DNA of 64,000 bases from Gammaproteobacteria bacterium (lineage in GTDB: Bacteria; Pseudomonadota; Gammaproteobacteria; Pseudomonadales; Pseudohongiellaceae), in assembly GCA_012960305.1 (NCBI GenBank), contig DUBM01000017.1, forward strand, positions 62,001-126,000, written 5' to 3'. Each line of letters begins with the position of its first letter. The stretch's first letter is position 1. Position numbers and translations under genes: made by a program. Shown piece after piece: positions 42,072 through 61,566 of the stretch. The notes beneath the pieces are model-generated. The model ran no database searches. It saw nothing but the letters and a program-made list of their open reading frames with translations, and was not told the DNA's origin.

Positions 42072-42798
42072 CGCTCTCTACCAAGCCATCTCGTAATCTA
42101 ACCCAACGCTGAGATCGCTCTGCTAATTCATCGGAGTGAGTTACCATAATCAGGGTTTTACCTTGGTCATGTAACTCATCAAACAACTTCAAAATTTCAG
42201 CACCTGACTTCGAATCTAAGTTACCAGTGGGTTCATCAGCCAGAATAATTAATGGATCTACCGCCAATGCCCGGGCTATTGCAACACGCTGCTGTTGACC
42301 CCCGGAAAGCTCAAAAGGTTTGTGGTCCACGCGATCATCCAGGCCGACTCGTGAGGCCAAACCCATCGCGATTTCGTGACTGTCAGATTCCGAATAGCCT
42401 TGATAGAACAAAGGCATTTCAATATTCTCCAGCACATTTAATTGCTGAATGAGATTATAAGATTGGAATATGAAGCCAAGCCTGGCTCCACGAATACTAG
42501 ATAGTTCGTCATCTTCCATCTCTGAGGTATCTTCGTCGCCGAGAAAATATTTACCGGCCGTAGGCTGATCTAGACAACCCAAAATATTCATCAAAGTTGA
42601 TTTGCCACAACCGGAAGGGCCCATGATGCTAATGTAATCGCCGGCATAAAAATCTAACGATATACCATGGAGCACTTCAACTGAGAGAGAGCCCATGAAG
42701 TAGGTCTTGCGAATATCATCGAGACTAGCAACCAATACCTGCTTATCTAAGATTAGAGAGTCTGCTGATAGTGCTTCTGAATTTTTTTGTTCAAACAT
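42052..42798 (-). CDS. MacB/LolD-type ABC transporter ATPase
   Basis: A 248-residue ATPase: GPSGCGKSTLMNILGCLDQP (Walker A), a Q-loop in FIFQSYNLIQQLNV, ELSGGQQQRVAIARALA (signature), LIILADEPTGNLDSKSG (Walker B and D-loop), and TLIMVTHSDELAE (H-loop). All catalytic residues are present. It starts 35 bases after the adaptor gene and overlaps the permease by 20 bases, so it is the motor of the same exporter. Confidence 0.95.
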   Translation of the reverse strand: MFEQKNSEALSADSLILDKQVLVASLDDIRKTYFMGSLSVEVLHGISLDFYAGDYISIMGPSGCGKSTLMNILGCLDQPTAGKYFLGDEDTSEMEDDELSSIRGARLGFIFQSYNLIQQLNVLENIEMPLFYQGYSESDSHEIAMGLASRVGLDDRVDHKPFELSGGQQQRVAIARALAVDPLIILADEPTGNLDSKSGAEILKLFDELHDQGKTLIMVTHSDELAERSQRWVRLRDGLVESDDRRNS

Positions 42799-42833
42799 AA
42801 TTACTCAGTTCGGCGGGCTGAAGAAAAGAGGTT

Positions 42834-44921: not shown

Positions 44922-46617
44922 CAATACCTTCCTCCCATTGACCATTATCGTCGACATAGAGCAAACCTACGTCTCTCCAAAAATCGAGCTTAGCGATATT
45001 GTGCTGCACTATAGAGCTAATAAGCTCCGTTCGAGCAGCAGTTAAATCATTCTGCGAGTCTACCGTATCTTGAATATCACCAAGACCCAATTCGGCTCTT
45101 AATTCTGCTTCCTCGACCCGTCGTTCATTAATCTCCACGCTAGTCACGTTTATCTCGTAACTTTTACTGGCTTCGTTCATTCGTCGCCAGGTGTCCAACA
45201 CACTTAACTTAATATCGTCCAGCGAGAGCAAATAATCACGAGTCGATGCTTCGTAGTCGATAAGAGCGCGGCGGTAATTATTTCGATTCAGCGTAGTCTC
45301 AAGCGGCAACTCTAGATCTAGGCCTGCAGTGTAGATTGCATTCTCGAAATCAAGCTCCCCTAAATTACTGCTATTCGAGCTAGGAACAGAGGCCACCACA
45401 CTAAAACCTAAGGCTGGGTAGAGCGCGTTGACCGCGACATCAATGCGGCGGGCACTGTCTTGCACACGATCAAGCTGAGTGTATAAATCCAGCCTTGTCT
45501 GCATCGCCATTTCAGTAGCCTGATCCAAACTAATGTCTGGACTTTCCATACCGGTCTCTGTGATGAGAGTCATCTCGTCATCATCAAGAACAATATTCTC
45601 ATCTGCATCCAAGCCAATAAGTATCTTAAAATTATCCAGACTGCGTTTGTAACGAGTTATAGAAGAAGTCCAGCGCAGATCTGCCTGTAGCGAGGATTGC
45701 TCAAGCCGGCCCACCTCTAGAAGGGTAGTAAGACCCTCAGCTTGAAAAGCCTGTTCTCTTTCCAAAGATAAATTGTTAGCTAACAGGCCAGCGTAGTTGT
45801 TTTCCGCAGTTGCTCGGCTAAGCAGAACTGAGTAATAATCTGAAGCGACCCTAACAGCGAAGGTTTTTCGAAAACGAGTGAAATCTCGCAACTGATAAAG
45901 TAGATCACGTTCTGCTTGCATTAAGGTTTCAGTTGCAATATCGCTGCCGAAACCCCGAAGCAGCGGTTGAGTAAAAGAACCAATTAGAGCACCTGTCCCA
46001 AACTCAGAAATATCGCCGGTAAGAAAGCGAGTAAAATTATTAGTGAGATTTATCGCAATGGCTCCGCCGCTCTTCAATAAATACTTAGCTCCCAAACTGG
46101 TGTTGGCATCAACGCTCTCACTAGTACTTAACAAATCACTATTTTTCAGGTTTTCCATACCGGTGAGGTCTTGCATGTCTGAAACAAATTCATCAGTAGC
46201 GTCCCACTGGTATTCGCCTCGGCTAATAGATGAAAAAGTTGGGCTGTAGCGATCTCTGTCTAAGGTGAGAGCAAGAGCTTCCAAATAGAGCCTTTCTTTC
46301 TGCGACTGAAAGTCGCGACTGTGCTTAAAAGCGAGATCAAGAGCATCATTTAAGCCCAGAATATGCGCTCCCATTTCGCTGTCTGCTTCATTGTCGAGGA
46401 ATTCGAAACTGTCGCTATTCAGAGAAAGAGAAGTCAACTCCACCAATTTTTCTTCATCCACGATGATCTGGTCGTTCATTCCCGGAACGAGTTCTGATTT
46501 CTCGGCGATAGCATCATAGCTTTCATCATCAGCGCTGCGTTTATAGCTGGCACTAGTGCAGGCCAGCAAGGCTAGACAGGAAAGCCCTATGGATAAAGTT
46601 TTACCAAAGTGTGTCAT
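44908..46617 (-). CDS. TolC-family outer-membrane efflux protein (lipoprotein)
   Basis: A 569-residue outer-membrane channel. The ATG at 46617 gives a signal peptide ending in lipobox LLAC (Cys20); an upstream in-frame TTG at 46629 is less likely. The body shows the two TolC-type repeats of long helices and barrel strands: LGLNDALDLAFKHSRDFQSQ, FTQPLLRGFGSDIATETLM, LDQATEMAMQTRLDLYTQLD, and VEEAELRAELGLGDIQDTVD. Lipidation is a feature of OprM/CusC-type members. It is the first gene of the four-gene exporter operon. Confidence 0.9.
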   Translation of the reverse strand: MTHFGKTLSIGLSCLALLACTSASYKRSADDESYDAIAEKSELVPGMNDQIIVDEEKLVELTSLSLNSDSFEFLDNEADSEMGAHILGLNDALDLAFKHSRDFQSQKERLYLEALALTLDRDRYSPTFSSISRGEYQWDATDEFVSDMQDLTGMENLKNSDLLSTSESVDANTSLGAKYLLKSGGAIAINLTNNFTRFLTGDISEFGTGALIGSFTQPLLRGFGSDIATETLMQAERDLLYQLRDFTRFRKTFAVRVASDYYSVLLSRATAENNYAGLLANNLSLEREQAFQAEGLTTLLEVGRLEQSSLQADLRWTSSITRYKRSLDNFKILIGLDADENIVLDDDEMTLITETGMESPDISLDQATEMAMQTRLDLYTQLDRVQDSARRIDVAVNALYPALGFSVVASVPSSNSSNLGELDFENAIYTAGLDLELPLETTLNRNNYRRALIDYEASTRDYLLSLDDIKLSVLDTWRRMNEASKSYEINVTSVEINERRVEEAELRAELGLGDIQDTVDSQNDLTAARTELISSIVQHNIAKLDFWRDVGLLYVDDNGQWEEGIDEPR

Positions 46618-47258
46618 TGATATTGCCAAGAATATTGCTTAAATAGGATGGTTCAATTGTTGATTATACGCTCTATTAGCAAATTTCAGTCTATATTTAG
46701 TGACCAATTGATTGCAGTACTATATTTTAAAACTATTAATTTTATTGATTTTTTATGAAATTCAACAACTAAGCTAATTTGGACTATTGAGAATTGAGCA
46801 AATCAGAGCATTCGAAGGCCAAAATGCTTTTATGTATCTACAGTTCTCACTATTTTCTCCTTACTCTAAATCATTACGCTTTTCGGCCTGAAAGATGCAC
46901 ATACAGAGGCTTTGGAATCATGTGAAGGTTCACCTAGGATCGATTCACGCCTGAGACTGTAGCGATGGAAACAGCGAGTCAATAAAGACATGTCTGTCAG
47001 CTAATAACTAGAAAAAGAAAGAATAAAATAATGGGCGACTATCGTTTATTTCGTATCAAACTAATCTAAATAATATCTAGACCAGCAAAATATTCATATT
47101 AAAGTATAAATTCATATATCCTAACTAACTCGAAAATAATAATACCCATTTAACTGAGAGTCTGTTTTTCACAATTGAATTAAGATCTTAGTTAAAACCA
47201 ATGTAAGTGTTGTGCAAAAAATACAGAATAGCTCGGTTAAAGTTTGTGAGGAATTAAA
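46618..47258. other. Intergenic gap between the exporter operon and the coiled-coil gene
   Basis: About 640 bases, markedly AT-rich, between divergently transcribed genes. It must hold promoters for both. I see no recognisable coding frame, RNA gene or strong hairpin. GAGG lies about 8 bases before the ATG at 47259. Confidence 0.4.
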
Positions 47259-48281
47259 ATGAACCCCTTTAAAATAGGACTAGTTATCGTTTTTATGGGA
47301 GGATTTGCCTATGGCATCACAAGCCTAAGCTTTCAAAATTCTAAATTGGAATCACAATTAGATGTCGCGGGGAACTATCAGAGCCAACTCAATGAACAAA
47401 CTAACGTTAACATACGCCGACTTCTTGAGTTTGAAGAGCAATTAGGAAAGCTAAAAAGCCAACTATTATCCGCCACTAGCCAGCTAACTAGTTTGAGCGC
47501 TGAACTTGAAGAGGCAAAGCAACAGTCAAACCCAAGCTATGAAGCTCTTTTAGAGAAAGCGCGCATGGAGATAGCCTCTGGAACTCCTCGACAACGCCGA
47601 CACAGTACTTCGCCAATGCGTTCGTTTTCAAATCCCGACACAGCTCGAGCTATGGCGGCAGACTATGTTCCAAAAATGTATGAGAATTTTATCAACACTT
47701 TGGGACTACCAGGTACGGAGCGTCAGGAAATCATTGTTGCGATGATTGAATATCGCTCCAAACGCTACCAAATGTTTGGGTCTCTCATGGAAGGCTCTCT
47801 ATCTACCAATGATGCCATTGCGATTTTCGGCCCAGAAGGATTAACCGATAGTGTGGGCAATTTATTGACCGAAGACCAACTCCGAGGTCTCTCTCAGTAC
47901 AATGCATTAATACAACAAGATTCTGCCCGACATGTTTTTGCTGAGGGCCTGTCCCGTCTGGGGAATACCATGAACGAAGACACTCAGAGTCATGTGCTCG
48001 ATGTGCTACTGGATGAAATCTACTCACCCCAGAACAATTACGGCGCAATCGTGGCGGAAGATGGCAGCATGATCAGCGCTTACAACAACCAGCTTGATGC
48101 CTACGATCGAGCACGAGCCAATCTTTTAGAAGAGATAAATGGCGATCAGCTGCAACAGTTCGATCGCTTTGTGGAAGAGCGGAGCAGCGGCGTAGATATC
48201 ATGCTCGAAGCTACTACTGATGGCAGCGGTCGCGTTGCCGTTAGAAATTTCCGAGTTGGAGTGGATGATCTACCGCAATAA
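47259..48281 (+). CDS. Membrane-anchored coiled-coil protein, unrecognised
   Basis: A 340-residue protein I do not recognise. It has an N-terminal transmembrane or uncleaved signal helix (FKIGLVIVFMGGFAYGITSL, about 4-23). A long coiled-coil stretch follows (about 25-105, rich in Gln, Glu and Leu: LLEFEEQLGKLKSQLLSATS). Then comes a basic linker (GTPRQRRHSTSP) and a mainly helical C-terminal domain (about 130-330) with YVPKMYENFINTLGLPGTER and LTEDQLRGLSQYNALIQQDS. The orientation suggests a periplasmic domain tethered to the inner membrane. It stands alone, about 100 bases before the M16 peptidase on the same strand. A role in envelope organisation is only a guess. Confidence 0.7.
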   Translation: MNPFKIGLVIVFMGGFAYGITSLSFQNSKLESQLDVAGNYQSQLNEQTNVNIRRLLEFEEQLGKLKSQLLSATSQLTSLSAELEEAKQQSNPSYEALLEKARMEIASGTPRQRRHSTSPMRSFSNPDTARAMAADYVPKMYENFINTLGLPGTERQEIIVAMIEYRSKRYQMFGSLMEGSLSTNDAIAIFGPEGLTDSVGNLLTEDQLRGLSQYNALIQQDSARHVFAEGLSRLGNTMNEDTQSHVLDVLLDEIYSPQNNYGAIVAEDGSMISAYNNQLDAYDRARANLLEEINGDQLQQFDRFVEERSSGVDIMLEATTDGSGRVAVRNFRVGVDDLPQ

Positions 48282-48378: not shown

Positions 48379-51357
48379 ATGAACAACCTACAGACTGCAC
48401 AGCGCTGGCTGCAAATATTGCTTGCCCCTCTGGCCCTCATGCTCTTGGTCTCGTGCAGCGAAGAAACCACACCCTCAAGTAATGATATGGCAAATTCGGT
48501 ACCTAACGCCCCAGCTCTGGGATATCTGCGCATCAATGCTATGGACGACAACGATCCCCTCGACGCCCAGATTTTTGAATTAGATAACGGCCTGAAAGTC
48601 TACTTGACCGAAAATCATGAAGAACCCAGATTCTATGCTGAGATCGCTGTTCGGGCAGGTAGCAAACATGACCCTGCTGACGCGACCGGGTTAGCCCACT
48701 ATTTAGAACACCTATTATTCAAAGGAAATCAGAATCTCGGAGCTTTAGATTATGCCGCTGAAAAACCTCTCCTGGAACAAATCGTCAACCTCTATGAGCA
48801 ACACTTCAATGAAACTGATGATACTGTCCGAGCTGAAATCTACGCAGAGATCAATCGCGCGGCCCAAGAAGCCGCAAGTTTTGCAGTCCCCAATGAAATA
48901 GACAAGTTATACAACGCGATGGGGGGCAGCGGACTAAATGCTCACACCTCAAACGAAGAAACTGTTTATAAGGTGAGCCTGCCTTCAAATCGCTTGGAAC
49001 AATGGGCAGAGGTTGAATCTGACCGCTTTGTAGATCCAGTGTTCAGAATTTTTCACACTGAACTTGAAACTGTGTACGAAGAGAAAAATCGTTCGCTGGA
49101 TAACCGTGGTTTCATAATCTATACCGCGCTTAATGAACAACTATTCAAAAACCATCCCTACGGTCAACAACCTACTATTGGCACAGTCGATCATCTCAAG
49201 AATCCATCATTAGTTTATATTCAGAATTATTTTGATACCTATTATGTGCCCAACAATATGGCCATTTTTATTTCTGGAGACATAAATATTGATGAAACTA
49301 TCACCTTAATTGCTGATAAGTTTTCCCATTGGGAAGCGAAGCCCATTCCAGCTATTGGCCCATGGGAAGAAGATCCATTACAAGGTGTCGAACGACAAAC
49401 GGTACAATACCCTGGTGAGGAACAAGTCCAACTTGCCTTCCGCACTGTGCCTAATGGAAATACTGAAAAAGAAGCGCTTATTCTTCTCGATATGATTCTG
49501 GACAACCGCACCGCTGGTTTAATCAATTTAAACTTGAACCAGCAACAGTTGGTATCTAACGCTGGTTCTTCTCCACAATTCCTCAACGATGGTGGCTTTC
49601 AGACTCTTTATGGAGTGCCTAAGCAAGAACAAACGCTGGCGGAAGTCGAACAATTACTGCTAGATCAACTTCAGCTGATCAAAAATGGTGAATTTGAAGA
49701 TTGGATAATCGCCGCCATCATCAATGACTTCAAAAAGAACCAGAAAGCCAGCCAGGAATTCAATACCGCAAGAGTTTCTATGATGCGCCAGTCCTTTATT
49801 GAAGGGGCAGATTGGGCAGATTATGTAGGCGAAATAGAACGCATGGAACAATTGGGCAAGCAAGATGTGATTGCTGTCGCTAACAAATATTTCGGCGATG
49901 ATTACGTTGCTATTTATCAAGTAAATGAACAACACGAAATTCCACCGGTCGAAAAACCTCAAATCGACCCAGTGAATATCGACCCCACCAGTCAATCTAA
50001 ATTTGCGCAAAACATACTCGCCATGGATTTCGATCCTATCGAACCAGTTTTTGTTGAAGCAGATATAGATTACCGTCTCATTGAATTTGTCGATGGAGTA
50101 AACCTCTATTACGCCCCCAACCCTCTGAACGATTTATTTTCATTTTCAATCAATGTTGATGTAGGCACCGAAGAAATTGAAAAACTAAATCTTGCGGCAT
50201 CCCTAATGGATGTTGCGGGCACTCAGACTATGAGTAATGAAGAGTTACAAAAAGAGTGGTATCGAATGGGCAGTGAATTCCGCTTTGGTGCTGGCGAGAA
50301 TTCGTCAGGATTTTCGTTAAGCGGCTTAGATGAACAATTCGAAAACAGCCTAAAGCTAATGATGGATTTGATAAAAAGCCCATCGACGGAAGAACAAACC
50401 CTGGAGCAAATGAAAGGGATCATGTTGAAATCGAGAGAGGATCAGAAGAGCTCACCACCGGCTATAGCCCGTGCACTTTATTTGTATAACCGCTATGGCG
50501 AAGAGTCACCGATGCTTGAAGCCCTGACCGCTGATCAAATCCAGAAAACCTCCCTGGATGAGTTAATGACTCTGCCAGCTGATCTCTTGGGCTATAAACA
50601 TACGCTCTCCTACACGGGCTCTTTGCAACTAGAAGATTTAGTGGGCGCACTCAGGCGTCACCACGCACTCGAAGGCGAGCTCAAAGACACACCAGAATTT
50701 CGTTTCCGTACAGCTCGAGAAATCATTGGAAGTGAAGTTTATGTTGTAGATCAGCAAACAGCCCAGGCCCAGGTGCGTATCGAATTCGCTGACGATGAAT
50801 ATGCTGAGTCAGATAGTGTTATGTCTTCAATTTATACCAATTATTTTGGTAGTGGCATGTCCAGCGTAGTTTTTCAGGAGTTGCGCGAAGCCAGAGCCCT
50901 AGCCTATTCGGCCTCCGCTCGGTACGCCCAGGGTGGGAGAGAAAACGCTGAAAACCTCATGTTGGGAGCAATTGGCACTCAAACCGATAAGACTGTGGAT
51001 GCCCTGAACGCTTTCATTGATTTGATTGATAACATGCCCGAGTCCAACGAACGGTTTGATGAGTCAGTGAACTCATTACTTAATCGCTACCGCACTTCAA
51101 AAATTAACTTTCGTGAAGTTATTGGCGCAGTGCGAAGTTGGGAGCGCCTCGGTTTGGAAGGCGATCCTCGTCGACAACGATACGAACAGCTGCAAACTGC
51201 AAGCATAGGTGATCTACTCTCGTTTCAACGAGACCATGTGAAGGAAAGACCAAAACTAATATCTGTCGTTGGTGATCTGTCAATTATCGAGGCCGAGGAA
51301 CTTGAACAATTCGGTACAGTCAAAGAAGTTCAAGTTGATGATCTCTTTGTCGATTAA
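48379..51357 (+). CDS. M16-family zinc metallopeptidase, lipoprotein
   Basis: A 992-residue peptidase with a lipobox (LVSC, Cys26), so it should be membrane-anchored in the periplasm. The N-terminal half has the inverted zinc motif HYLEH (His107, Glu110, His111) in GLAHYLEHLLFKGNQ, and a distal acidic segment, NEETVYKVSLPSNRLEQWAE, that supplies the third ligand. The C-terminal half (from about residue 560) keeps the M16 fold without the zinc motif, as in pitrilysin/insulinase chains that form a peptide chamber. The family degrades short peptides. It is 169 bases upstream of the ABC-PDZ-FG-GAP operon; a hairpin (CCTCGC-ATT-GCGAGG, 51421-51435) lies in between without a T-tract. Confidence 0.93.
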   Translation: MNNLQTAQRWLQILLAPLALMLLVSCSEETTPSSNDMANSVPNAPALGYLRINAMDDNDPLDAQIFELDNGLKVYLTENHEEPRFYAEIAVRAGSKHDPADATGLAHYLEHLLFKGNQNLGALDYAAEKPLLEQIVNLYEQHFNETDDTVRAEIYAEINRAAQEAASFAVPNEIDKLYNAMGGSGLNAHTSNEETVYKVSLPSNRLEQWAEVESDRFVDPVFRIFHTELETVYEEKNRSLDNRGFIIYTALNEQLFKNHPYGQQPTIGTVDHLKNPSLVYIQNYFDTYYVPNNMAIFISGDINIDETITLIADKFSHWEAKPIPAIGPWEEDPLQGVERQTVQYPGEEQVQLAFRTVPNGNTEKEALILLDMILDNRTAGLINLNLNQQQLVSNAGSSPQFLNDGGFQTLYGVPKQEQTLAEVEQLLLDQLQLIKNGEFEDWIIAAIINDFKKNQKASQEFNTARVSMMRQSFIEGADWADYVGEIERMEQLGKQDVIAVANKYFGDDYVAIYQVNEQHEIPPVEKPQIDPVNIDPTSQSKFAQNILAMDFDPIEPVFVEADIDYRLIEFVDGVNLYYAPNPLNDLFSFSINVDVGTEEIEKLNLAASLMDVAGTQTMSNEELQKEWYRMGSEFRFGAGENSSGFSLSGLDEQFENSLKLMMDLIKSPSTEEQTLEQMKGIMLKSREDQKSSPPAIARALYLYNRYGEESPMLEALTADQIQKTSLDELMTLPADLLGYKHTLSYTGSLQLEDLVGALRRHHALEGELKDTPEFRFRTAREIIGSEVYVVDQQTAQAQVRIEFADDEYAESDSVMSSIYTNYFGSGMSSVVFQELREARALAYSASARYAQGGRENAENLMLGAIGTQTDKTVDALNAFIDLIDNMPESNERFDESVNSLLNRYRTSKINFREVIGAVRSWERLGLEGDPRRQRYEQLQTASIGDLLSFQRDHVKERPKLISVVGDLSIIEAEELEQFGTVKEVQVDDLFVD

Positions 51358-51526: not shown

Positions 51527-52447
51527 ATGAGTAACAAAGGTACAGCGCTTTCCGTTTCCGGGTTGAAAAAAAGCTACGGCATCCACGAAGTTATTAGCAA
51601 TCTTGATTTGCAAATTCAACAGGAATCTATTCATGGACTGGTTGGATTAAATGGGTCCGGCAAAACGACAAGCCTAGAATGCATGCTTGGTTTGCAATCC
51701 GTAAATGGCGGCGACATTTCGATATTAAACTACTCTCCTCAGCAGCTACATCGAGCCAATGGCGATATCGTAGCAATCTTCGATTCCCCTAGCCTGCTTC
51801 CTAACCTCACTGTACGGCAATGCATGCAACACGCTTCGCTCCTTTGTGAAACACCAAAGAGAAGCCCTGAGACGGTTGAGCAACTGTTAAGTATTGAGCG
51901 CTTTTCCAATTTTAAAATTAAGCATCTATCTTTGGGTAATAAACGGCGGGCCTCCATCGCCCACGCTCTCATTGGCAACCCCAAAATGATTATTTTGGAT
52001 GAACCCTTCAACGGCCTTGATGCCGAAGGAGTGGATGACGTTCTGCAATTGATCAAAAAATTGAATAAAGAAGAAGGTACGACATTTTTATTGTCCAGCC
52101 ACCAATTGCCTTATCTCGAGCAGATTTGTTCACATATTGCGATATTAGACAAAGGCTCGATTGCTTTAAATGATAAAATAGAGACTCTACTCGCTCAAAG
52201 CTCTAGTGGCGTACTTCTGCAAACAGACCAACAAGAGAAAGTCATTGAGTTTCTCGAAAACAGCACCACCGCTCAAGTAGTTACTACAGCAGACCCAAAT
52301 TATTTACAGGTCACCCTCACCTCCATCGATTCAAGTCAGTTGAATAAAATGCTCGTGGAGCAAAACATTGGCATTAATGAATTAATTCTCAATCGTGCTT
52401 CTCTTGGAAGTTTATTTCGAGAAATAACTAGTGAGGCTGCCCGATGA
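51527..52447 (+). CDS. ABC transporter ATPase (NosF/ABC-2 type)
   Basis: A 306-residue ATPase of the ABC-2 exporter branch. GLVGLNGSGKTTSLECMLGL is Walker A, HLSLGNKRRASIAHAL is the signature (LSLGN variant), KMIILDEPFNGLDAEG is Walker B and D-loop, and TFLLSSHQLPYLEQI is the H-loop. The C-terminal ~90 residues form the extra domain usual in this branch. It overlaps the permease start by 4 bases (ATGA) and opens a tightly packed six-gene run. Size and type are close to the NosF/NosY pair. Confidence 0.93.
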   Translation: MSNKGTALSVSGLKKSYGIHEVISNLDLQIQQESIHGLVGLNGSGKTTSLECMLGLQSVNGGDISILNYSPQQLHRANGDIVAIFDSPSLLPNLTVRQCMQHASLLCETPKRSPETVEQLLSIERFSNFKIKHLSLGNKRRASIAHALIGNPKMIILDEPFNGLDAEGVDDVLQLIKKLNKEEGTTFLLSSHQLPYLEQICSHIAILDKGSIALNDKIETLLAQSSSGVLLQTDQQEKVIEFLENSTTAQVVTTADPNYLQVTLTSIDSSQLNKMLVEQNIGINELILNRASLGSLFREITSEAAR

Positions 52448-53301
52448 ATGGCCTGATGGTATCACTACGCGCTGAATTATTTGTATCACTGCGAAGCTTT
52501 GCCGCCAAACTTGTCGTCTTTGGCCCTGCTCTACTCGTAGCACTGCAGTTCTTTCTGGTGAAACTTTCCGAGACAGGAGAAGCAACTCGGAATAGCTTAT
52601 TAGGTAGCGATAGCTTTGATGAGGCAGCGGCTAACAATGCCTACGGTTACTATGTAGATGGATTGAGTACTGGTTTGACCATGCTGGCACTGTTGCTAGT
52701 GGGATTGGCAGCCTATGGTTTTAGTTTTGAGCGAGATACAGGTGCTATTCGCCACCTGCTTATTCGGCGTATCAGCCGCATTAACTTAATAGCTGCCAAA
52801 CTCATTCATTTGCATTTACTTGCTGTGTTATCAATCATTTTGTTGTTAAGTAGCGCTTATCTCTTAAGTGATTTCTTGTGGGAATTCGGTCCTATAGTGG
52901 AAGATGGATTTGAACTGATAAGCGAAAGCGAAATTCGTTTTGAAATCGCCTTGGGGCTGGAGCTCGCATTGATACCGCTTCCCGCTGCTATTGCATTTGG
53001 ATTGTTAGTTTCTATTTGCGCACAATCTGCTACTCAGGCGGTTACTACAGCACTGGGAATCACTATTGCTATTGATATCTTCAAAGGCATGATGGGAGAC
53101 TTTGCACAATATGTCTACGCCAGTTTTCAGCCCTCATTATTAGATCAGTCTTACCTACAAGATGTAAGCAGGCTGGTTAGAGGCTACTCAGATGTTTTGA
53201 TTGATGACAGGATGGTACAGTTGAATACTTGGGTCCCATGGCCAACATTGTTCTTATTTATTGTGGTTTCGATGTTGCTGATCAGACAAAAGAAAATGTA
53301 A
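52444..53301 (+). CDS. ABC-2 type permease (NosY-like)
   Basis: A 285-residue inner-membrane protein with about six helices. One is near 17-38 (AKLVVFGPALLVALQFFLV); one near 77-97 (LTMLALLLVGLAAYGFSFER), followed by the characteristic RDTGAIRHLLIRRISR coupling segment; others lie about 115-137, 175-200, 200-220 and 258-280. It pairs with the preceding ATPase; the genes overlap by 4 bases. The short length, with a sizeable loop between helices 1 and 2, is like NosY, which passes ATP-driven motion to a periplasmic partner rather than exporting a large substrate. Function here is inferred. Confidence 0.85.
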   Translation: MNGLMVSLRAELFVSLRSFAAKLVVFGPALLVALQFFLVKLSETGEATRNSLLGSDSFDEAAANNAYGYYVDGLSTGLTMLALLLVGLAAYGFSFERDTGAIRHLLIRRISRINLIAAKLIHLHLLAVLSIILLLSSAYLLSDFLWEFGPIVEDGFELISESEIRFEIALGLELALIPLPAAIAFGLLVSICAQSATQAVTTALGITIAIDIFKGMMGDFAQYVYASFQPSLLDQSYLQDVSRLVRGYSDVLIDDRMVQLNTWVPWPTLFLFIVVSMLLIRQKKM

Positions 53302-54269
53302 TGAGAAAATTTAATCATAAAGCTTCTGTTAAATGTTGCTTAATTGTTACGCTCAGTATGAGTATGATTGCTTGTATCAATTACGAGCCAGCTGTGTTGA
53401 TTCCTGCGATAACTCTCTCTGCTGAGGATATTTCTCTTAGGTCTGATCAGCCTGGGTCGGGCGTAGATTTTGGTCTCGATGTTAGTCTGAATGAAAGTGA
53501 CTCACTCGCTAATGTAGAAATTCTGCCTGGCATTCGTGTGCGTAGTGTATCCAACAATAGTGTTGCAGATTCAGCAGGAATTCGGGTTGGAGATATAATC
53601 CTTTCTATCGATGGCATTGCAAGCAACAACCCGGATATTCTCCTCGCTGCGCAAGAAAACACCGATGCTGATACAGAATTAAAATTTCGCGTGCGCCGCA
53701 ATACCACCGTATTCGAAACAGGGCTCACTGGCAGGTTAAGAGGCGGCAACTCAGCTCCTATTGAATTATTTCGCATAGACCCCCTGGCAAGTAGAGCAGC
53801 TTATCAAACACAACTAATCAACATAGCTGGTAGAAGTGGAATGGCAGCAGCGCGGATAGTTGAAATTTATCCAAAGAGTCCGCTACTAGTAGCGGAAATT
53901 GGAATCGATGATATCGTTGTAGCGCTAAATGAAGTAGAAGTAAATTCTGCCCAGGGATTAGTAAACGATCTCAATCAGAACAAAGCCCTGGGTGAATCTG
54001 TGATCTTCAGTATTTTTGATGGCGAAACGATTAGCAATAAGACAGTAAAACTTTGGGATCCCGGCAGAAGGATTAGCCGACTCTCTCTGGGGCCAGTATT
54101 GCAATACAACTCTTCCTTAAGTCCTAAGAGAAGTAATTTGAACATCTTAGATTTTTGGCTTTTTTCTCTCTATGAATATAATCAGATTGAAGAAGAGAAA
54201 TCACATAGCCTCTTTGGAATATTTAACTTCATCAGTGACTATGGTGAGTTAACGGAAGAGCAAAATTGA
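53301..54269 (+). CDS. Lipoprotein with two PDZ domains
   Basis: A 322-residue protein starting at ATG 53301, which overlaps the permease stop by one base (TAATG). Its signal peptide ends in lipobox MIAC (Cys25). PDZ domain 1 is at about 76-140 (PGIRVRSVSNNSVADSAGIR, then VGDIILSIDG). PDZ domain 2 is at about 190-255 (KSPLLVAEIGIDDIVVALNE). The tail (about 265-322) is unrecognised. There is no protease domain, so it is a periplasmic adaptor that should bind C-terminal tails of proteins. Its position between the permease and two propeller proteins suggests that it links them. Confidence 0.82.
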   Translation: MRKFNHKASVKCCLIVTLSMSMIACINYEPAVLIPAITLSAEDISLRSDQPGSGVDFGLDVSLNESDSLANVEILPGIRVRSVSNNSVADSAGIRVGDIILSIDGIASNNPDILLAAQENTDADTELKFRVRRNTTVFETGLTGRLRGGNSAPIELFRIDPLASRAAYQTQLINIAGRSGMAAARIVEIYPKSPLLVAEIGIDDIVVALNEVEVNSAQGLVNDLNQNKALGESVIFSIFDGETISNKTVKLWDPGRRISRLSLGPVLQYNSSLSPKRSNLNILDFWLFSLYEYNQIEEEKSHSLFGIFNFISDYGELTEEQN

Positions 54270-55882
54270 ATCTAATCATCCTCAACGAAAATCATTCCAC
54301 TGCAGGATTTTCCCGCCACTATTGGCTCGCCTATCCCTTTGCTTTTCGACTGATTTTAGTTGCCTTCGGTAGTTTACTAAGCTCAATCTCTCTCGCTCAG
54401 ACAAACTATGTCGCTTACGAAGTTGCCAGAGAAAATAATTGGGCAGCACTAATTACAGAAGATCTTAATGGTGATGGTTTAAAAGACGTTATTTTCCCCC
54501 ACTACGACCCAACCATCGGGCGTGAAATACACATTCATCACCAGCAAGCCGATGGCAATTTTTCAAAAAATCCTCAAAAAGTGGAAATCAAATCTGAAAT
54601 TATCGCGGTAGGCTTTGCTGACTTACGTGAGGAACCTGGAAAAGAACTGCTGCTATTTGCCAGCAATGGTGTCTTTAGTCTTTCCACCGCTGCGGAAGGC
54701 TACGCTGGCAACATTAAACAGTTAATTCAATGGGATTTGATCGCCGCCGTACCTGATCTTGAGCGAGTTCAGTTCATCGAAACAATCCATGATATGAACA
54801 ATGATGGCTATGTTGATTTATTGTTACCAGGCGATGAAGAATTTGCCGTTTATCGTGGCAGTAACAATGAATCATTTGAGCTTGCTGCAACATTTACCAC
54901 TCTAAACCTTGAGACCAGGGCCGCAGAAAGAAATAACAAGAGCGCCAATGCGAGCGCTAACATTGGTATCAATGCCGAGGAAGGTATTGTGCTTGATATT
55001 ACTTCTGAAGTACCAACACCGTTTGCGAATTTTATCGAACAATGGTCTGCGGAAGCCAATTCTGAACGACCTCTGATGCGTGCAGAAAGCTGGGTACCTT
55101 CACCCATTATGGCCCAACTCAATGATGACGATTTAGAAGATATTCTCTATTTAAATGTTGGTAGCGATAACCTAGGGCAGCTGAATATTCATTACCAGCA
55201 AGACAATCTAACTTTCAATGAAAGTGCTGACTGGGTTGGCGCCACTGATACGCAAGGTGATATTAAACTCGCCCATTTAAATGGCGACGATAAAATTGAT
55301 CTCTTCCGCTTGAGTTCCGATGGCGGTGAATGGAACGCCCGCTTCTTCATAAACAAAGGTGGAATTTTTGAATTGGGCAAGCCTGATCAGATCATGCGTT
55401 TCTCAGGTTACGATGTGAAATTGAGTGTTATCCCACTAGCCGACTCCGAGCAGCCGGCACTAAATGTCAGCTACTACACCATTCCAGTAATAGACGCCAT
55501 TCGTAATGCCAGCATCAATAGAGTGCAGCTTCTTTATGGTAATTCTGAGGCAAGCCAGGGCCAACTATTTAATCGAAGACCTGACTCTTCTCTGGAAGAA
55601 AGTTTTTCAGCAGCAAATGTTCGTGGATTATCTGAACAAATGTCTTTGCAATACGATGTGGACGGAGATGGCAATCGTGATGCCTTATATATAACCGATA
55701 ATGGCACGCTTGCCGCCAAAAGAATTGATAATGATTTAGTTATAGCAAATGAACCATTCTGGGAATATGTCTCACCGCGCACAGTGTTTCAATTTGAAGT
55801 ACTGCTACTGAACGAGGACGAATTGCCCGACCTCTTACTTCGACATGGGGCTAGTACGACTCTGTTGGTGACCAACCCATGA
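54266..55882 (+). CDS. Exported FG-GAP/VCBS repeat propeller protein A
   Basis: A 538-residue protein. No ATG or GTG is usable: the frame begins at TTG 54266, which overlaps the PDZ gene's TGA by 3 bases and has GGAAGAG 5 bases upstream, a well-placed ribosome site. A signal peptide follows (hydrophobic about 25-42, ending SLAQ). Repeats of the calcium-loop type recur: DLNGDGLKDVIFP (66-78), DMNNDGYVDLLLPG (~175), NDDDLEDILYLN, LNGDDKIDLFRLS, DVDGDGNRDALYI, and NEDELPDLLLRHG. These build a seven-bladed propeller like FG-GAP/integrin-type proteins, which bind Ca2+ and ligands outside the cytoplasm. It is paralogous in design to the next gene and overlaps it by 4 bases. Confidence 0.82.
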   Translation: MNLIILNENHSTAGFSRHYWLAYPFAFRLILVAFGSLLSSISLAQTNYVAYEVARENNWAALITEDLNGDGLKDVIFPHYDPTIGREIHIHHQQADGNFSKNPQKVEIKSEIIAVGFADLREEPGKELLLFASNGVFSLSTAAEGYAGNIKQLIQWDLIAAVPDLERVQFIETIHDMNNDGYVDLLLPGDEEFAVYRGSNNESFELAATFTTLNLETRAAERNNKSANASANIGINAEEGIVLDITSEVPTPFANFIEQWSAEANSERPLMRAESWVPSPIMAQLNDDDLEDILYLNVGSDNLGQLNIHYQQDNLTFNESADWVGATDTQGDIKLAHLNGDDKIDLFRLSSDGGEWNARFFINKGGIFELGKPDQIMRFSGYDVKLSVIPLADSEQPALNVSYYTIPVIDAIRNASINRVQLLYGNSEASQGQLFNRRPDSSLEESFSAANVRGLSEQMSLQYDVDGDGNRDALYITDNGTLAAKRIDNDLVIANEPFWEYVSPRTVFQFEVLLLNEDELPDLLLRHGASTTLLVTNP

Positions 55883-57555
55883 ATTTATTTAGACTTCGAG
55901 GCAGAGGCCGTCTTATTGTTGGCTTGATAGTCCTCGGGCTGATGTCTTCAGCACAATCAGCTGAGTTAGAATTTTCATCTCAATCATTCCAGTTTCCTGC
56001 CAAGTTAGAAGGCTTAGTAATTGCTGATACCAATGGCGACAATCTTAGTGAAATAATTACAGTAATTGATAAAACTCTCCGAATTTACTTTCAATCCGCA
56101 GCAGGCTTTGATTTTCAATCAGGCTTCGATGAAATTGTTTTTCCCGGACAAGCAGTAGGATGGGACCTCAGTAGTAACTATTCAAACTCTGATCAAGCCT
56201 CAATCATAGCGGTTATCGACGGTAATGAAGTTCTGGTCTGGCACATAGATAGTCAAACGATTCTTCCGCCGAAAAAAGTTCAGGAAAACCTGCTAGGGTT
56301 TCTGAGTAAGGGAGTTAACAGACTGCATTTTTCTCGGGATGTAAATGGCGATGGTATCGAAGATCTATTAATTCCTGGAGCAGGCATGCTCAATATTTAT
56401 ATCAGCGATGGCGCCGGCAGCTATCAAGCAGGGCTAAGCGTACAATTTGATATGCGGATCCGTACCAATCTCGATTCCACTCAATTAGAACGTCGTACCG
56501 GTCAATCAATTCGAATACCTCTAATCGTCCTGCGAGATGTAAATGGAGACGGCTTTGATGATCTTGTTTCTCGCACTGACGAAAAACTTGAAGTGTTTAT
56601 AGCCGATGCCCTAGCCAATAACTATTTCAACATTGTCCCGAGCTATACCTTAGACATAACAGAAATTGAGGCACGCTTAGGGGAGTTCGATATCGACAAT
56701 CTTGATTTCGCTAACTTGACAGGAATTCTAGCTTTAACTCATGAAGAAATATTGGATGATGTAGACGGTGACGGAATTGAAGATTTACTCTTACGAGAAG
56801 CGGGCAAAATTTCTCTCTTCGGTGGTACCTTCAACGGGATGGAACTTGAGCAGCCGAGACAAGTACTAAGATCCGGAGGAAATGTCTTAAGCACGTTTCT
56901 TTATGATGAAAATGAAGATGGATTGAAAGATCTCTGGCTCTGGCGAGTCGAGTCGATATCTATAGGAGATATATTCGTTTGGTTGGCTCTTTCAGGCAGT
57001 GTGGCCATTGAGGCATTTATTTACCCCAATGAAGGTAAGCGTTTCTCGCGCCGTCCTGCCAGAAAAATTAGTGTTGATCTAAGATTTCCCTCAGTCATTC
57101 GTCTGGCTGCAACTTTTCAAGAAAAAGCTGACGAATATAGAGAGTTGCAAGAGCAACAAGCAATCCCAAATAATTCTGCCAATTTGGATAATAATTTTGG
57201 CAGTGAAGAATTACTGGTTCTGGCAAACAATCAGATTGAAATTTTTCTGAATGCTATTGAGCCGAACGAAGACAATCGACAGTTTCTAGGCGCCTTAAAT
57301 TACACACGCGAACGTAATGAATATGAAATTAATATTAGGGAAATTATCGATGACATTTCTCTTAATGCAAATTCTGCTCTTGCGGCTGTAGAAGGAAAAA
57401 CCCCAGATCTTACTTTGGATATTGATGCCAGCTTTATAAATGGAAGTGGTGATATCATTCCAGCGAAACTGAATGCCGACTCAATCGACGATGTCTTCAT
57501 CTTTACCGACCGCAATAATAGTCACATATCAGGAATGCTGTTACTCTCAAAATAG
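55879..57555 (+). CDS. Exported FG-GAP/VCBS repeat propeller protein B
   Basis: A 558-residue protein overlapping protein A by ATGA. It has a signal peptide (about 11-27, ending SAQSAE). Repeats of the same calcium-loop type are spread through the chain: DTNGDNLSEIITV (~50), DVNGDGIEDLLIPG, DVNGDGFDDLVSR, DVDGDGIEDLLLRE, ENEDGLKDLWLWR, and LNADSIDDVFIF near the end. It has the same architecture as protein A but low obvious identity, so the two are probably old duplicates or partners forming a heterodimer. Function unknown; an extracytoplasmic binding role is likely. Confidence 0.82.
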   Translation: MNLFRLRGRGRLIVGLIVLGLMSSAQSAELEFSSQSFQFPAKLEGLVIADTNGDNLSEIITVIDKTLRIYFQSAAGFDFQSGFDEIVFPGQAVGWDLSSNYSNSDQASIIAVIDGNEVLVWHIDSQTILPPKKVQENLLGFLSKGVNRLHFSRDVNGDGIEDLLIPGAGMLNIYISDGAGSYQAGLSVQFDMRIRTNLDSTQLERRTGQSIRIPLIVLRDVNGDGFDDLVSRTDEKLEVFIADALANNYFNIVPSYTLDITEIEARLGEFDIDNLDFANLTGILALTHEEILDDVDGDGIEDLLLREAGKISLFGGTFNGMELEQPRQVLRSGGNVLSTFLYDENEDGLKDLWLWRVESISIGDIFVWLALSGSVAIEAFIYPNEGKRFSRRPARKISVDLRFPSVIRLAATFQEKADEYRELQEQQAIPNNSANLDNNFGSEELLVLANNQIEIFLNAIEPNEDNRQFLGALNYTRERNEYEINIREIIDDISLNANSALAAVEGKTPDLTLDIDASFINGSGDIIPAKLNADSIDDVFIFTDRNNSHISGMLLLSK

Positions 57556-57594
57556 ACTGATTTGTTGAGTCAAATCCATTGAGTAAAAAACCTA

Positions 57595-57840
57595 ATGAAG
57601 AAAGCGGTTTGGATAACATTGATAGTTTCTCTAGTATTGGTGAATCTAATAGCTGAGGCGGTTTTCTATTTCAGCGGTACGTATATCAATATGTTTTTCC
57701 GAATTTCGTTGGTTATGGGAATTACCGCAATAGCGTCAGTTTTTACTGGGGCGATACTGCTGATAGGGAAATTAGAAGAAGAAAAACCTCTATCCGGCCA
57801 TGTTAGTGACACTCTCGGGGCGGATAAAAATCTTAAGTAA
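57595..57840 (+). CDS. Small membrane protein with two helices
   Basis: An 81-residue protein with two strong hydrophobic helices, about 5-25 (VWITLIVSLVLVNLIAEAVF) and about 35-58 (FRISLVMGITAIASVFTGAI), and an acidic, soluble C-terminus (KLEEEKPLSGHVSDTLG). I do not recognise a family. It starts 39 bases after propeller B on the same strand and closes the ABC-PDZ-FG-GAP run, so it may be a subunit or assembly factor of that system. Confidence 0.6.
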   Translation: MKKAVWITLIVSLVLVNLIAEAVFYFSGTYINMFFRISLVMGITAIASVFTGAILLIGKLEEEKPLSGHVSDTLGADKNLK

Positions 57841-57929
57841 GACTGATCGGCAATCATTGCTCAAATAACAAAACATTACTCGCATATTTAGCACTAGCTC
57901 TCCTTACGGCCGGGACTAGCTTCAGCTAA

Positions 57930-58224
57930 ATGAATCAAAGCCAGCTCAGCGAAAATCAACTCCCGCAAGACGCGTCGGCCAATGCCTGAAGTCACTAGCC
58001 CTGAATTACAGTTGGAGGCAATATCTTATGAACGAAATTCGGCAGACCTCGATATTTTCTCTGAATTTCAGAAAAACTAGAGTAATGGTCTGGCTGGTAT
58101 TAAATCTGACGTGAGCACCATCAGTGGGGACACAGCACAAACAATCTTCTTCAGTGGTTCAGTCCAAGATAGCACAGGGACTACACGCGCTATTCGAATT
58201 CCGTTTAGTCCACCGCAAAACTAG
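57930..58224 (+). pseudogene. Relict coding sequence (frameshift and stop)
   Basis: A stretch that codes well but is broken. ATG 57930 gives MNQSQLSENQLPQDASANA and then a stop (57987-57989). In the next frame it continues as SPELQLEAISYERNSADLDI, then FSEFQKN and TAG (58078-58080). It resumes in the same frame as SNGLAGIKSDVSTISGDTAQ, TIFFSGSVQDSTGTTRAIRI and PFSPPQN to TAG 58222-58224. The composition is that of a real protein end, possibly a pilus- or secretion-related alpha/beta domain, but I cannot name it. It follows the small membrane protein on the same strand and looks like the tail of a lost gene. Confidence 0.5.
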
Positions 58225-58325
58225 GCCGTAGCTCGAACTTTTACTACTATCTATAATTTCTTCGTTCTCAAGCTATTTTACTATTCCCTGTATCTATGCT
58301 GCTTTAAGTAAGCCTTTTAGTTGTG

Positions 58326-58345
58326 CTTTAAATTGTGATTTAAAG
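58326..58345. promoter_or_regulatory. Inverted repeat upstream of the TRAP transporter
   Basis: Perfect 8-base arms CTTTAAAT and ATTTAAAG around TGTG, about 150 bases before the TRAP binding-protein start. It could be an operator. The AT-rich arms and the absence of a T-tract argue against a terminator. The rest of 58225-58497 shows no other feature. Confidence 0.35.
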
Positions 58346-58497
58346 GGAAATATGGTTTCATCGACCAGTTACTGATTACTACTGACTCACTGTTATTTTT
58401 CACAAATATTCAGTGACTTAGCGAAATATTAATAAGTTAATGCACACAGATTATCGCCAATTCCCCTATGGGTTTTAATAAGTCAGTTAGGTTGTTA

Positions 58498-59544
58498 ATG
58501 AAGAATATTGCAGTAAGCATCATATTAGCGACCCTGCTTGTTTCCTGTAGCGATGAATTAACTCGAGCAAGGCCTTTTATTCTCACCACGGCAACTACCG
58601 GCGGTACTTACTATCCAGTCGGCGTCGCGTTAGCGACAATCGCCCATGCACAACTCTACGAATCTCAGGGAATATCACTTACCGCCATTAGCTCAGCTGG
58701 CTCACTGGAAAATGTGAAGCTACTAAGAGACAACCAAGCACAGTTCGCAATTTTACAGGGACCTTTTGGCGCATGGTCGTGGAATGGTGAGGGCCCGATA
58801 AGCAATCCGCAAACACATATTCGGAGTGTTAGCGCACTTTGGCAAAATGTTGAGCATTTTGTTCTCCTCAGCGAACTCGCTTCCACTGGCGAGATTATGG
58901 ATTTGGACAACCTCGACGGCGATCGCTATGTGTTAGGCGCTCGCAATTCTGGTGCAGAACAAACTGGTCGGTTTATCCTGGAAACCCTCGGCATAGATTA
59001 CGAAGAAAAATTCAACCTTGCCTATATGGGTTACGGTCCGACCACGAATGCGATCCAAGATGGCAATATAGTCGGCATGAACATTCCTGCCGGCGCTCCT
59101 GTCAGCTCTATCACCCAAGCCTATGCCTTACTTGGCGACCGCATGACGATCTTGAACTGGTCTCAGGAAGCACTGGATAAGATTAATTCGAGATACCCAC
59201 TTTGGGATTGGTATGAATTTCCACCGGGTACTTATCCAAATCAAAGTGAATTAATTCGGACAGTAGCTTCTCCAAATGTACTTGTTACCCGGGAGGATAT
59301 CTCCGAAGAAGTTGTCTATAACGTCACCAAAGTGATCTGGGAAAATTTAGCCACCTTGCAAGAAATTCACGGAGCCACCAAAGACATGCGAATTGAGATT
59401 GCTGTCGAAGGGCTCGGCGCCCCACTCCATAAAGGGGCTATTCGCTATTACCGAGAAGTAGGAGTAGAGATTCCAGATCGACTCCTTATTGATGAACCAA
59501 CAAATACAACCGAACAATCCTCAACTCAGGAAAACGGAGCTTAG
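58498..59544 (+). CDS. TAXI-type TRAP transporter solute-binding lipoprotein
   Basis: A 348-residue periplasmic binding protein. I start it at ATG 58498 (AGG 6 bases before), which gives a signal with lipobox LVSC (Cys17); an in-frame ATG at 58468 adds ten odd residues. TAXI-family phrases: ILTTATTGGTYYPVGVALAT, the GGTYYPxG substrate-loop; SLTAISSAGSLENVKLLRDN; and RYVLGARNSGAEQTGRFILE. It captures a small organic solute (glutamate or 2-oxo acids in some relatives) for the fused permease that follows 9 bases later. Lipidation of a TAXI protein is known but not universal. Confidence 0.9.
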   Translation: MKNIAVSIILATLLVSCSDELTRARPFILTTATTGGTYYPVGVALATIAHAQLYESQGISLTAISSAGSLENVKLLRDNQAQFAILQGPFGAWSWNGEGPISNPQTHIRSVSALWQNVEHFVLLSELASTGEIMDLDNLDGDRYVLGARNSGAEQTGRFILETLGIDYEEKFNLAYMGYGPTTNAIQDGNIVGMNIPAGAPVSSITQAYALLGDRMTILNWSQEALDKINSRYPLWDWYEFPPGTYPNQSELIRTVASPNVLVTREDISEEVVYNVTKVIWENLATLQEIHGATKDMRIEIAVEGLGAPLHKGAIRYYREVGVEIPDRLLIDEPTNTTEQSSTQENGA

Positions 59545-59553
59545 AGAAAAATT

Positions 59554-61566
59554 ATGAATTCTGTTTATTTGCGTTGGGCTGCATTTTTATTCGCCCTCTT
59601 CCACATTTACTGCAACGTATTTGCCAGTATTTCTGAACTGTGGTTATCAGCAATTCACTTTGGAGGTTTCTGTGCTATTTGTGCTTTTATGGCAAATGAA
59701 TCCGAAAATGTTGCTAGGTATTCTCTGAGCTATTGGATTAACATCACTCTCGCTGTCACAGCGATCTTCACCTCTACTTATTTGATCCTGTTTGAGAATG
59801 CTCTTTATGCACGGGAAACCGAGTACATTCTAAGTGACTATTTCTTTTCTTTAGTAGCAATAGGTCTGGCAATAGAATTTACTCGACGAACTACCGGCTG
59901 GTTTATGCCGATATTAATCCTGATAAGTTTGTCATACATTCTTTTCCTTGGTAGATATATTGACGGGGTGTTTTCTTTCCCTGGCCTCAGTTTGGAAACA
60001 GTTCTTTACAGAAGCTTCTTCACCAGTGAAGGTATGTTTGGCCTGACGGCGAACATTTCTTCAACCTTCGTATTCATGTTTATTATTTTTGGTTCCTTCC
60101 TACTCCGTTCCGGGGCTGGTGATTTTATAGTAAGGCTCGCTCAATGTTTGGCAGGACGGTTCACCGGCGGCGCAGGTTTAGTAGCCGTCGTCGGCTCAGG
60201 ATTAATGGGTTCAGTTTCCGGCTCAGCTGTGGCTAACACTGTGTCTACGGGCGTTATAACTATTCCCATGATGAAGAAATCCGGCTTTCCGAGCCGATTT
60301 TCAGCTGGGGTTGTTGCCGCCGCTTCAACTGGTGGCGCATTAATGCCCCCAGTAATGGGAGCCGGTGCTTTCGTACTCGCCAGCTATACGCAAATTTCCT
60401 ACTTGACGATCATTGCAGCTTCAACATTACCTGCAGTTCTTTACTTCCTCACTGTTTCCTATTTTGTTCGCATCGAAGCAAAACGGCTCGGATTAACACC
60501 GGCAAATTCCGGCGACACTGAGCAAGTGTCCACAGTGTTGAAAGAAGGTTGGCATTTCATTATTCCTATTTCCATCCTGGTTAGTTTTCTTGTAGTTGGC
60601 AGAACACCGACAACTTCTGCTGCGTTCGCGATTATTAGTGTTATCGGTGCATCCTGGTTATCATCTACACCTATGCTGCCAAAAGATATCTTTAATGCAG
60701 TAGTTGATGGTGTAAAGACAATGGTATCAACAGCACTGTTATTAATTGCTGTTGGAATTATTATCAACGTGGTAACAACCACCGGTGTTGGAAATGCATT
60801 TTCATTGATGATTGTTGAATGGGCTCAGGGGAGCTTGCTGATTACCTTGATACTTGTTGCACTAGCATCCTTAGTGTTAGGTATGGGGTTGCCAGTGACA
60901 GCTTCCTACATAGTACTAGCCACTCTTTCTGCGCCATTAATTTTCGATCTAATTACTCAGTCACAATTACTCGCGGTGCTACAGGAAGGAGACTTGCCTA
61001 GCAATGTCGCCGCAACTATCGGTTTGTTTGGTGGCGATCCATTAATTGCTCTTCAAGAAATGCCTCTGGAAATGAAACAGATCATTCGGCAGGAAATGCT
61101 TGAGCCGGAGTTACTTACTGGCATGTTACTGAGTGCGCACCTTATAATTTTCTGGCTCTCTCAAGACAGCAATGTCACACCACCAGTGTGTTTAGCATCT
61201 TTTGCTGCTGCTGGTATTGCTGGCACTCGACCCATAGCTACCGGCCTCACTAGTTGGAAAGTCGCCAAAGGTTTATATCTAGTGCCGGTATTGTTCGCTT
61301 ATTCGCCCCTGATCTCTGGTTCCTGGCCGGAACGCATTGAAGTATTCTTCTGGTCCTGTATGGGCCTCTATGCCATGGCAGGTTTATTGCAATGGCATTT
61401 AGAAACCAAACTCAACCCCATCACAGCAGGCGGGCTGCTGCTTAGTGCGATCTTGCTGATGTGGACTCCTTTTCCTCTGTATTACCATGTTATCGGAGCC
61501 GTTATATTAATCTCGATAATTGTTGCGCAGGGTAGACAAGAAAAAAATATTACAGCGGCTGCTTAA
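59554..61566 (+). CDS. Fused TRAP transporter permease (small plus large subunits)
   Basis: A 670-residue membrane protein with about 16 helices. The first ~150 residues correspond to the 4-helix small subunit, the rest to the large DctM-like subunit. Key segments: VGSGLMGSVSGSAVANTVST and AGVVAAASTGGALMPPVMGA (first hairpin), LVLGMGLPVTASYIVLATLS, and DSNVTPPVCLASFAAAGIAG (second repeat). This is the fused architecture typical of TAXI-TRAP systems. It imports its solute with a sodium or proton gradient. No other member of the operon follows. Confidence 0.93.
   Translation: MNSVYLRWAAFLFALFHIYCNVFASISELWLSAIHFGGFCAICAFMANESENVARYSLSYWINITLAVTAIFTSTYLILFENALYARETEYILSDYFFSLVAIGLAIEFTRRTTGWFMPILILISLSYILFLGRYIDGVFSFPGLSLETVLYRSFFTSEGMFGLTANISSTFVFMFIIFGSFLLRSGAGDFIVRLAQCLAGRFTGGAGLVAVVGSGLMGSVSGSAVANTVSTGVITIPMMKKSGFPSRFSAGVVAAASTGGALMPPVMGAGAFVLASYTQISYLTIIAASTLPAVLYFLTVSYFVRIEAKRLGLTPANSGDTEQVSTVLKEGWHFIIPISILVSFLVVGRTPTTSAAFAIISVIGASWLSSTPMLPKDIFNAVVDGVKTMVSTALLLIAVGIIINVVTTTGVGNAFSLMIVEWAQGSLLITLILVALASLVLGMGLPVTASYIVLATLSAPLIFDLITQSQLLAVLQEGDLPSNVAATIGLFGGDPLIALQEMPLEMKQIIRQEMLEPELLTGMLLSAHLIIFWLSQDSNVTPPVCLASFAAAGIAGTRPIATGLTSWKVAKGLYLVPVLFAYSPLISGSWPERIEVFFWSCMGLYAMAGLLQWHLETKLNPITAGGLLLSAILLMWTPFPLYYHVIGAVILISIIVAQGRQEKNITAAA

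Follow-up and report, generated by a model that had tools for sequence, protein, structure and literature searches.

What do an ABC transporter pair, a PDZ lipoprotein and two FG-GAP propellers do together when they are encoded side by side, and where does such a unit begin and end? The question is raised by the window, a stretch of 64,000 nucleotides from contig DUBM01000017.1 of a member of the Pseudohongiellaceae, in which the initial annotation had read six genes running in one direction as the parts of a single trans-membrane machine. All six open reading frames are present on the + strand, with their coordinates unchanged. The first five, which we call the core, encode an ABC ATPase (51527-52447, +, 306 aa; PF00005 ABC_tran, 2.9e-25), an ABC-2 permease (52444-53301, +, 285 aa; PF12679 ABC2_membrane_2, 3.3e-10), a double-PDZ lipoprotein with a C-terminal beta domain (53301-54269, +, 322 aa from its ATG; PDZ_2, 6.2e-15), propeller A (54266-55882, +, 538 aa from a TTG start; PF13517 FG-GAP_3, 2.1e-13) and propeller B (55879-57555, +, 558 aa; FG-GAP_3, 1.3e-14). 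Downstream lies a small two-helix membrane protein (57595-57840, +, 81 aa), a family-specific neighbour outside the core, for which neither Pfam nor NCBIfam gave a family above threshold. Upstream is an M16 (pitrilysin-type) peptidase lipoprotein (48379-51357, +; PF05193, PF00675), likewise a neighbour outside the core. By eye, a short TTG-started frame (57578-57655, +) runs in a different reading frame across the beginning of the small gene.

The four overlaps from which stoichiometric synthesis had been argued can be read directly in the DNA: ATGA (52444), TAATG (53299), TTGA (54266) and ATGA (55879). Counted in relatives, with gene starts assigned by a script biased towards the start position of the gene in the window, the ATPase/permease overlap is found in 54/56 family loci, propeller A/propeller B in 46/55, PDZ/propeller A in 32/54 and permease/PDZ in 16/56; left out of these counts are one junction with a broken ATPase frame and the junctions in L077, L086 and L091, where the script left the frame unresolved. 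Overlaps are general in relatives at two junctions only, ATPase/permease and propeller A/propeller B. Scanning for promoters and terminators gave no usable signal: promoter-like sites are fewer than expected by chance (12 versus 21.8 in shuffled sequence), while terminator-like sites number 15 versus 9.5 in shuffles, none of them at a fixed place between operon genes.

We next consider how far the arrangement reaches. Named records that contain close relatives include Pseudohongiella sp. and Pseudohongiellaceae bacterium; others carry only the label Gammaproteobacteria, Pseudomonadales, SAR86 or OM182; NCBI places Pseudohongiella in the Gammaproteobacteria, Pseudomonadales. The PDZ protein has a strong match in 36 of 37 host-genus genomes; the 21 genomes sampled from other families gave two weak matches and no strong one. 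In the same sample propeller B was found in 36/58 genomes, all 36 from the host genus. Within the host family, propeller B reaches 111 of 137 genomes at E <= 0.001, in five of eight genera (one of these at only 4.1e-6). In the class sample it was found in 3/369 genomes besides its own (1.6e-13, 7.6e-5 and 8.3e-4; scoring was limited to three candidates per genome). A wider propeller-B profile matched 28/390 genomes of the order, again with three candidates scored per genome: 13 from the family, two strong matches in a second family, f219 (G751, 5.6e-76; G820, 2.1e-69), and 13 weak ones. One genome of the host family (G445) gave no propeller-B match, either with the wider profile or in the family-wide search. 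The permease profile matched 3/190 f219 genomes, in one genus of 37, and in the class sample 10/369 genomes besides the window's own gave partial matches only (best 8.5e-7); four of these ten weak regions, from other families, were examined and held no PDZ or propeller match.

From positive genomes of the host family, 58 loci (30 + 28) were fetched. A conserved neighbourhood had been proposed as the check on the initial reading, and it was found: all five core genes are collinear on a single strand in 57 of the 58, across five genera. In one of the 57, propeller B is cut by the contig end, and the exception is a short contig whose beginning already lies within propeller A.

Two further cases mark the edges of the unit. 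The second family carries cassettes of five core genes in L241 (6594-12722), L242 (6630-12780) and L251, with 45-49% identity in the ATPase and 23-24% in propeller B. Comparison of the DNA of L241 and L242 (20 kb each) revealed the cassette as the sole similarity, a single 6.2 kb match at 67% whose edges lie no more than about 50 bases from the ends of the genes, with dissimilar flanks on either side; L241 and L251 have flanks in common. The cassette therefore sits at two sites and has moved as a unit, a relocation seen in two MAGs that represent two species of one genus. The reverse case is a host-genus genome (G513) in which a few dozen bases separate the M16 gene from the small gene downstream of it, the five core genes being gone; no propeller B was found in this genome, and the permease profile gave nothing at E up to 10. 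This deletion was observed once, in a 6253-base contig of a MAG with 77% completeness. Conserved order, loss as a block in one relative and two sites in a second family bear out the proposal of a single unit, and comparison of the loci shows the five core genes as one evolutionary unit, inherited as a block and lost or relocated together in single cases.

These observations bear on a reading in which the genes are merely co-expressed envelope genes with separate jobs, sharing an operon by chance. The permease/PDZ and PDZ/propeller A overlaps vary among relatives and propeller-B relatives exist without the cassette, both as such a reading would have it; however, one relative has lost exactly the five genes, and exactly five stand at two different sites in the second family. 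We regard chance association as highly improbable.

The boundaries first drawn for the operon held for the five core genes; the small gene did not prove to be a portable part, and the M16 neighbour upstream had been left out. The small gene follows the core in 52/58 family loci, with contig ends close by in three of the six misses. It was ruled out as a core component, and the claim that its product is a part of the machine found no support, on two grounds: a profile of the protein found nothing in the three f219 stretches L241, L242 and L251, and the gene is retained at the deletion locus (L136) where the core is lost. In several relatives (L086, L089, L091, L128, L129, L134 and L135) the small protein is extended C-terminally to about 160 aa; L128, L129 and L135 were aligned.

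The M16 gene is present upstream in 57/58 family loci. Its HxxEH motif is conserved in 55/56, the exception being a 178-aa fragment where the contig ends, and a lipobox-like motif lies within the first 60 residues in 49/56. The peptidase (E up to 1e-50) is absent from all 14 tested genomes of three cassette-less genera, as well as from G016 and G483, and among the cassette-less family genomes tested it is kept only in G513. Neither M16 nor the small gene was found in the 18-20 kb fetched at L241, L242 and L251, and M16 was rejected as a core part for its absence from these stretches.

A TAXI-type (NMT1_3) receptor and a DctM-type permease, identified by domain match, follow at 58468-61566 (+). 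TAXI is at most 2.1 kb from propeller B in 36/39 host-genus loci and 3.6-6.7 kb away in 7/10 g297 loci, and none was seen in seven g298 loci; TAXI and TRAP were rejected as core genes, the position of TAXI varying between genera. On the other side, a four-gene tripartite efflux block (40692-46629, -) encodes an outer-membrane efflux protein, an HlyD-type protein (707 aa), an ABC ATPase and a MacB/FtsX permease. The end of this block lies upstream of M16 in some relatives, and in others the neighbour seen is an amidase gene (compare 38680-40461). Between the efflux block and M16 is a gene for a 340-aa protein without a Pfam family (47259-48281, +), whose relatives stand either before M16 or between the small gene and TAXI (24-26% identity; L071, L074 and L132). 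The long intergenic stretch 57841-58467 may be a remnant of such a gene, since some relatives carry one like 47259-48281 there.

Pairwise distances were compared for 30 loci plus the window; 33 of the 58 loci had all nine compared genes, and 30 of these did so at a coverage of at least 75%. The core five are two to four times as divergent as their neighbours, with mean distances of 0.64-0.78 versus 0.20-0.32 for M16, TAXI and TRAP. After removal of TRAP and ADH distances, the residual correlations, which rest on mutually dependent pairwise distances, are 0.61-0.82 among the core five and 0.29-0.47 between the core five and TAXI. M16 correlates at 0.71 and 0.61 with the propellers, at 0.34-0.42 with the other three core genes and at 0.56 with TAXI. 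Because the M16-propeller correlation rivals some core pairs, distance correlation gives no clean boundary around the core five; it hints at a link between the peptidase and the propellers.

The transporter pair has the hallmarks of an ABC-2 (PF12679) system: the ATPase carries the expected motifs and the permease exceeds the ABC2_membrane cut-off. Among 59 ATPases (57 family loci, L241 and L242), Walker A is present in 59/59, Walker B in 58/59 (the miss being a broken frame) and an S[ST]H H-loop in 52/59. The signature is non-canonical and reads LS[LF]GN[KR]RR in all 59 sequences. A likeness to NosF, suggested at the outset from size class, was confirmed in that, among solved structures of single-subunit bacterial ATPases, NosF matches best (1.7e-28). 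Eukaryotic ABCA domains score higher still (up to 4.2e-36), so the ATPase shows likeness to NosF rather than orthology. Among the matches listed, no NCBIfam model reached its curated cut-off for any of the six proteins: the best ATPase match reached 143.5 bits versus 309.75 among the best 25 of 189 matches, and all permease matches were far below cut-off. An anti-phage defence system was also considered and rejected; PADLOC matched the ATPase only (17 models, best 7.3e-27), and six other proteins had no match at E <= 0.01.

ABC-2 permeases are usually exporters, and the pair could accordingly be an ordinary exporter of a small molecule, lipid or peptide, with the PDZ protein and propellers serving outside as accessory binding or resistance proteins that are not mechanically coupled to it. 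Consistent with this, the ATPase scores best in NCBIfam against families of exporters (lantibiotic protection, DrrA), albeit far below cut-off and among the best 25 of 189. Against it, no biosynthetic gene stands constantly beside the cassette in the stretches read across the host genus, other genera and the second family, and the best-conserved blocks of the permease are two predicted periplasmic loops. We judge plain export rather unlikely.

The permease has six transmembrane segments by hydropathy, and sequence searches gave no credible relative among solved structures. Its conservation, compared within this permease type alone, is highest in the predicted periplasmic loops 143-171 and 212-263, reaching 0.85 (151-160) and 0.92 (241-250) versus 0.62-0.73 in the cytoplasmic loop 91-120. 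Counting against coupling, the predicted transmembrane stretch 171-200 is conserved nearly as well (0.76-0.82), and conservation is low (0.47-0.53) in the first periplasmic loop (41-70). The conserved loops suggest a periplasmic partner.

In the third core protein, Pfam found PDZ_2 at two stretches, and the lipobox cysteine is invariant among relatives. The residue at +2 of a lipoprotein predicts its membrane sorting, and the protein is supported as a lipoprotein with a predicted outer-membrane location. Its structural model places residues 1-58 in a signal helix and a mostly low-confidence linker, and gives PDZ1 a fold of the HtrA/DegS type, like that of DegS, in which an HtrA-like ligand-binding loop is kept. 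Only PDZ-type families were matched, with no trypsin-like protease domain ahead of the PDZ repeats. The C-terminal beta domain had no Pfam or NCBIfam match and was barely covered by the fold search; we claim no new fold for it. Two candidate PDZ ligands, the C-termini of propeller A (mostly ...LVxxP) and M16 (mostly ...[LVI]F[VI][DEQ]), are conserved but of a non-classic type, and were dropped.

Propellers A and B exceed the Pfam cut-off for FG-GAP repeats (51.1 and 54.9 bits versus 26.9) and are paralogues, the propeller-B profile reaching propeller A at 5.3e-8 in their own genome. Both begin with a hydrophobic segment that by eye resembles an export signal. Propeller A has three loose calcium-loop motifs versus a mean of 0.68 and a maximum of four in 1000 shuffles, which is not significant. 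The model of propeller B has a propeller fold with helical elements, and its closest folds are PVL-type lectins (rmsd 11.2 over 301 residues, TM-score 0.25; profile match 9e-4) and integrin alpha propellers (best rmsd 3.8 over 161 residues); TM-scores are low, and the unrelated propellers DDB1 and KICSTOR are among the matches. A separate FG-GAP protein is encoded elsewhere in the genome (G000:C20:21942-22841, open frame 512 aa), and its best FG-GAP_3 repeats outscore both operon propellers.

These folds raise the possibility of surface display or adhesion, with lectin- or integrin-like propellers placed at the cell surface through the PDZ lipoprotein and the ABC pair handling a ligand or the anchoring. 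The lectin and integrin matches speak for it; they are partial, however, fold likeness is no proof of function, and no result puts the propellers beyond the outer membrane. We hold this reading to be improbable.

Propeller-B-like proteins also occur outside the cassette (L107, L243-L247), and such proteins, as far as their distribution tells, have no general need for an ABC pair of this kind. The initial proposal would have been undermined by propellers and ABC pair turning up routinely in unrelated contexts: this was found for propeller-B-like proteins, whereas the cassette was the sole setting in which this type of permease was seen.

Taken together, the five core genes probably make up one cell-envelope machine. 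Signatures in the proteins support a cytoplasmic ATPase, an inner-membrane permease, a lipid-anchored PDZ protein and propellers with a signal-like start, and the reading that we favour is an inner-membrane ABC pair that would work on dedicated periplasmic and outer-membrane partners. The ATPase/permease pair would sit in the inner membrane, with the PDZ lipoprotein predicted to be anchored in the outer membrane and the propellers exported. The docking site of the propellers and the lipoprotein would be the conserved periplasmic loops of the permease, while PDZ1 may grasp a C-terminal or strand peptide of a partner or client. NosFY acts mechanically on NosD, and by analogy with NosFY, NosD and the lipoprotein NosL, ATP hydrolysis could drive a conformational cycle that acts on the exported partners, so that a ligand or partner protein might be loaded, matured or released. 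We see an about even chance that 51527-57555 is such a portable five-gene cassette, an envelope-spanning ABC-2 machine in which propellers and PDZ protein dock on the permease and the ATP cycle acts on exported partners. Only tentatively do we advance the stronger form: a mechanical envelope machine of new composition, in which an inner-membrane ABC-2 engine would deliver its work stroke to two FG-GAP propellers that a PDZ lipoprotein of the outer membrane keeps in place, and whose five genes would pass between lineages as a cassette sufficient in itself.

We know of few ABC pairs that act on exported proteins instead of pumping a solute. If true, the favoured reading would add to NosFY-like engines a further group of exported partners unrelated to the first, making the principle general, and would give a function to proteins now named 'hypothetical' or 'serine protease Do'. 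The natural five-gene boundaries are an exact guide to what to clone. The cassette is conserved, portable and built of known protein families, and the literature searched yielded no description of it: we found no account of the five-gene machine, none joining FG-GAP, PDZ, ABC transporter and insulinase, and none joining Pseudohongiella and FG-GAP.

Among known systems, ABC-2 exporters such as DrrAB, PmtCD or GldAFG have the ATPase and ABC-2 permease families in common with the cassette, although its NCBIfam matches, as far as listed, fall far below their cut-offs, and to our knowledge these exporters have no dedicated PDZ or propeller partners. The PDZ1 fold is in common with HtrA, DegP and DegS; unlike these, the cassette protein has no protease domain, and it has a lipid anchor and a C-terminal beta domain. 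PVL-type fungal lectins and integrin alpha have the FG-GAP beta-propeller in common with the cassette, from which they differ in sequence (13-18% identity), in the helical elements of the model and in the genetic link to an ABC pair. A further parallel is NosDFYL, the apparatus that assembles nitrous oxide reductase, which a published account (PMC7558416) describes as an ABC ATPase and permease encoded together with an accessory protein and a lipoprotein. Its ABC pair falls in one size class with that of the cassette (308-313 aa in solved NosF chains, 306 aa in the cassette ATPase), whereas its exported partners are NosD and NosL, in place of which the cassette has a double-PDZ protein and two FG-GAP propellers. 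NosL (PF05573) had no match in the window's own genome, which is 97.3% complete (controls matched in 2/14), and NosD had none among the 18 window proteins scanned. Because no NosL was found in the genome and the exported partners are different, this is not a Nos system; we favour the view that the cassette is analogous to NosDFYL rather than a member of it.
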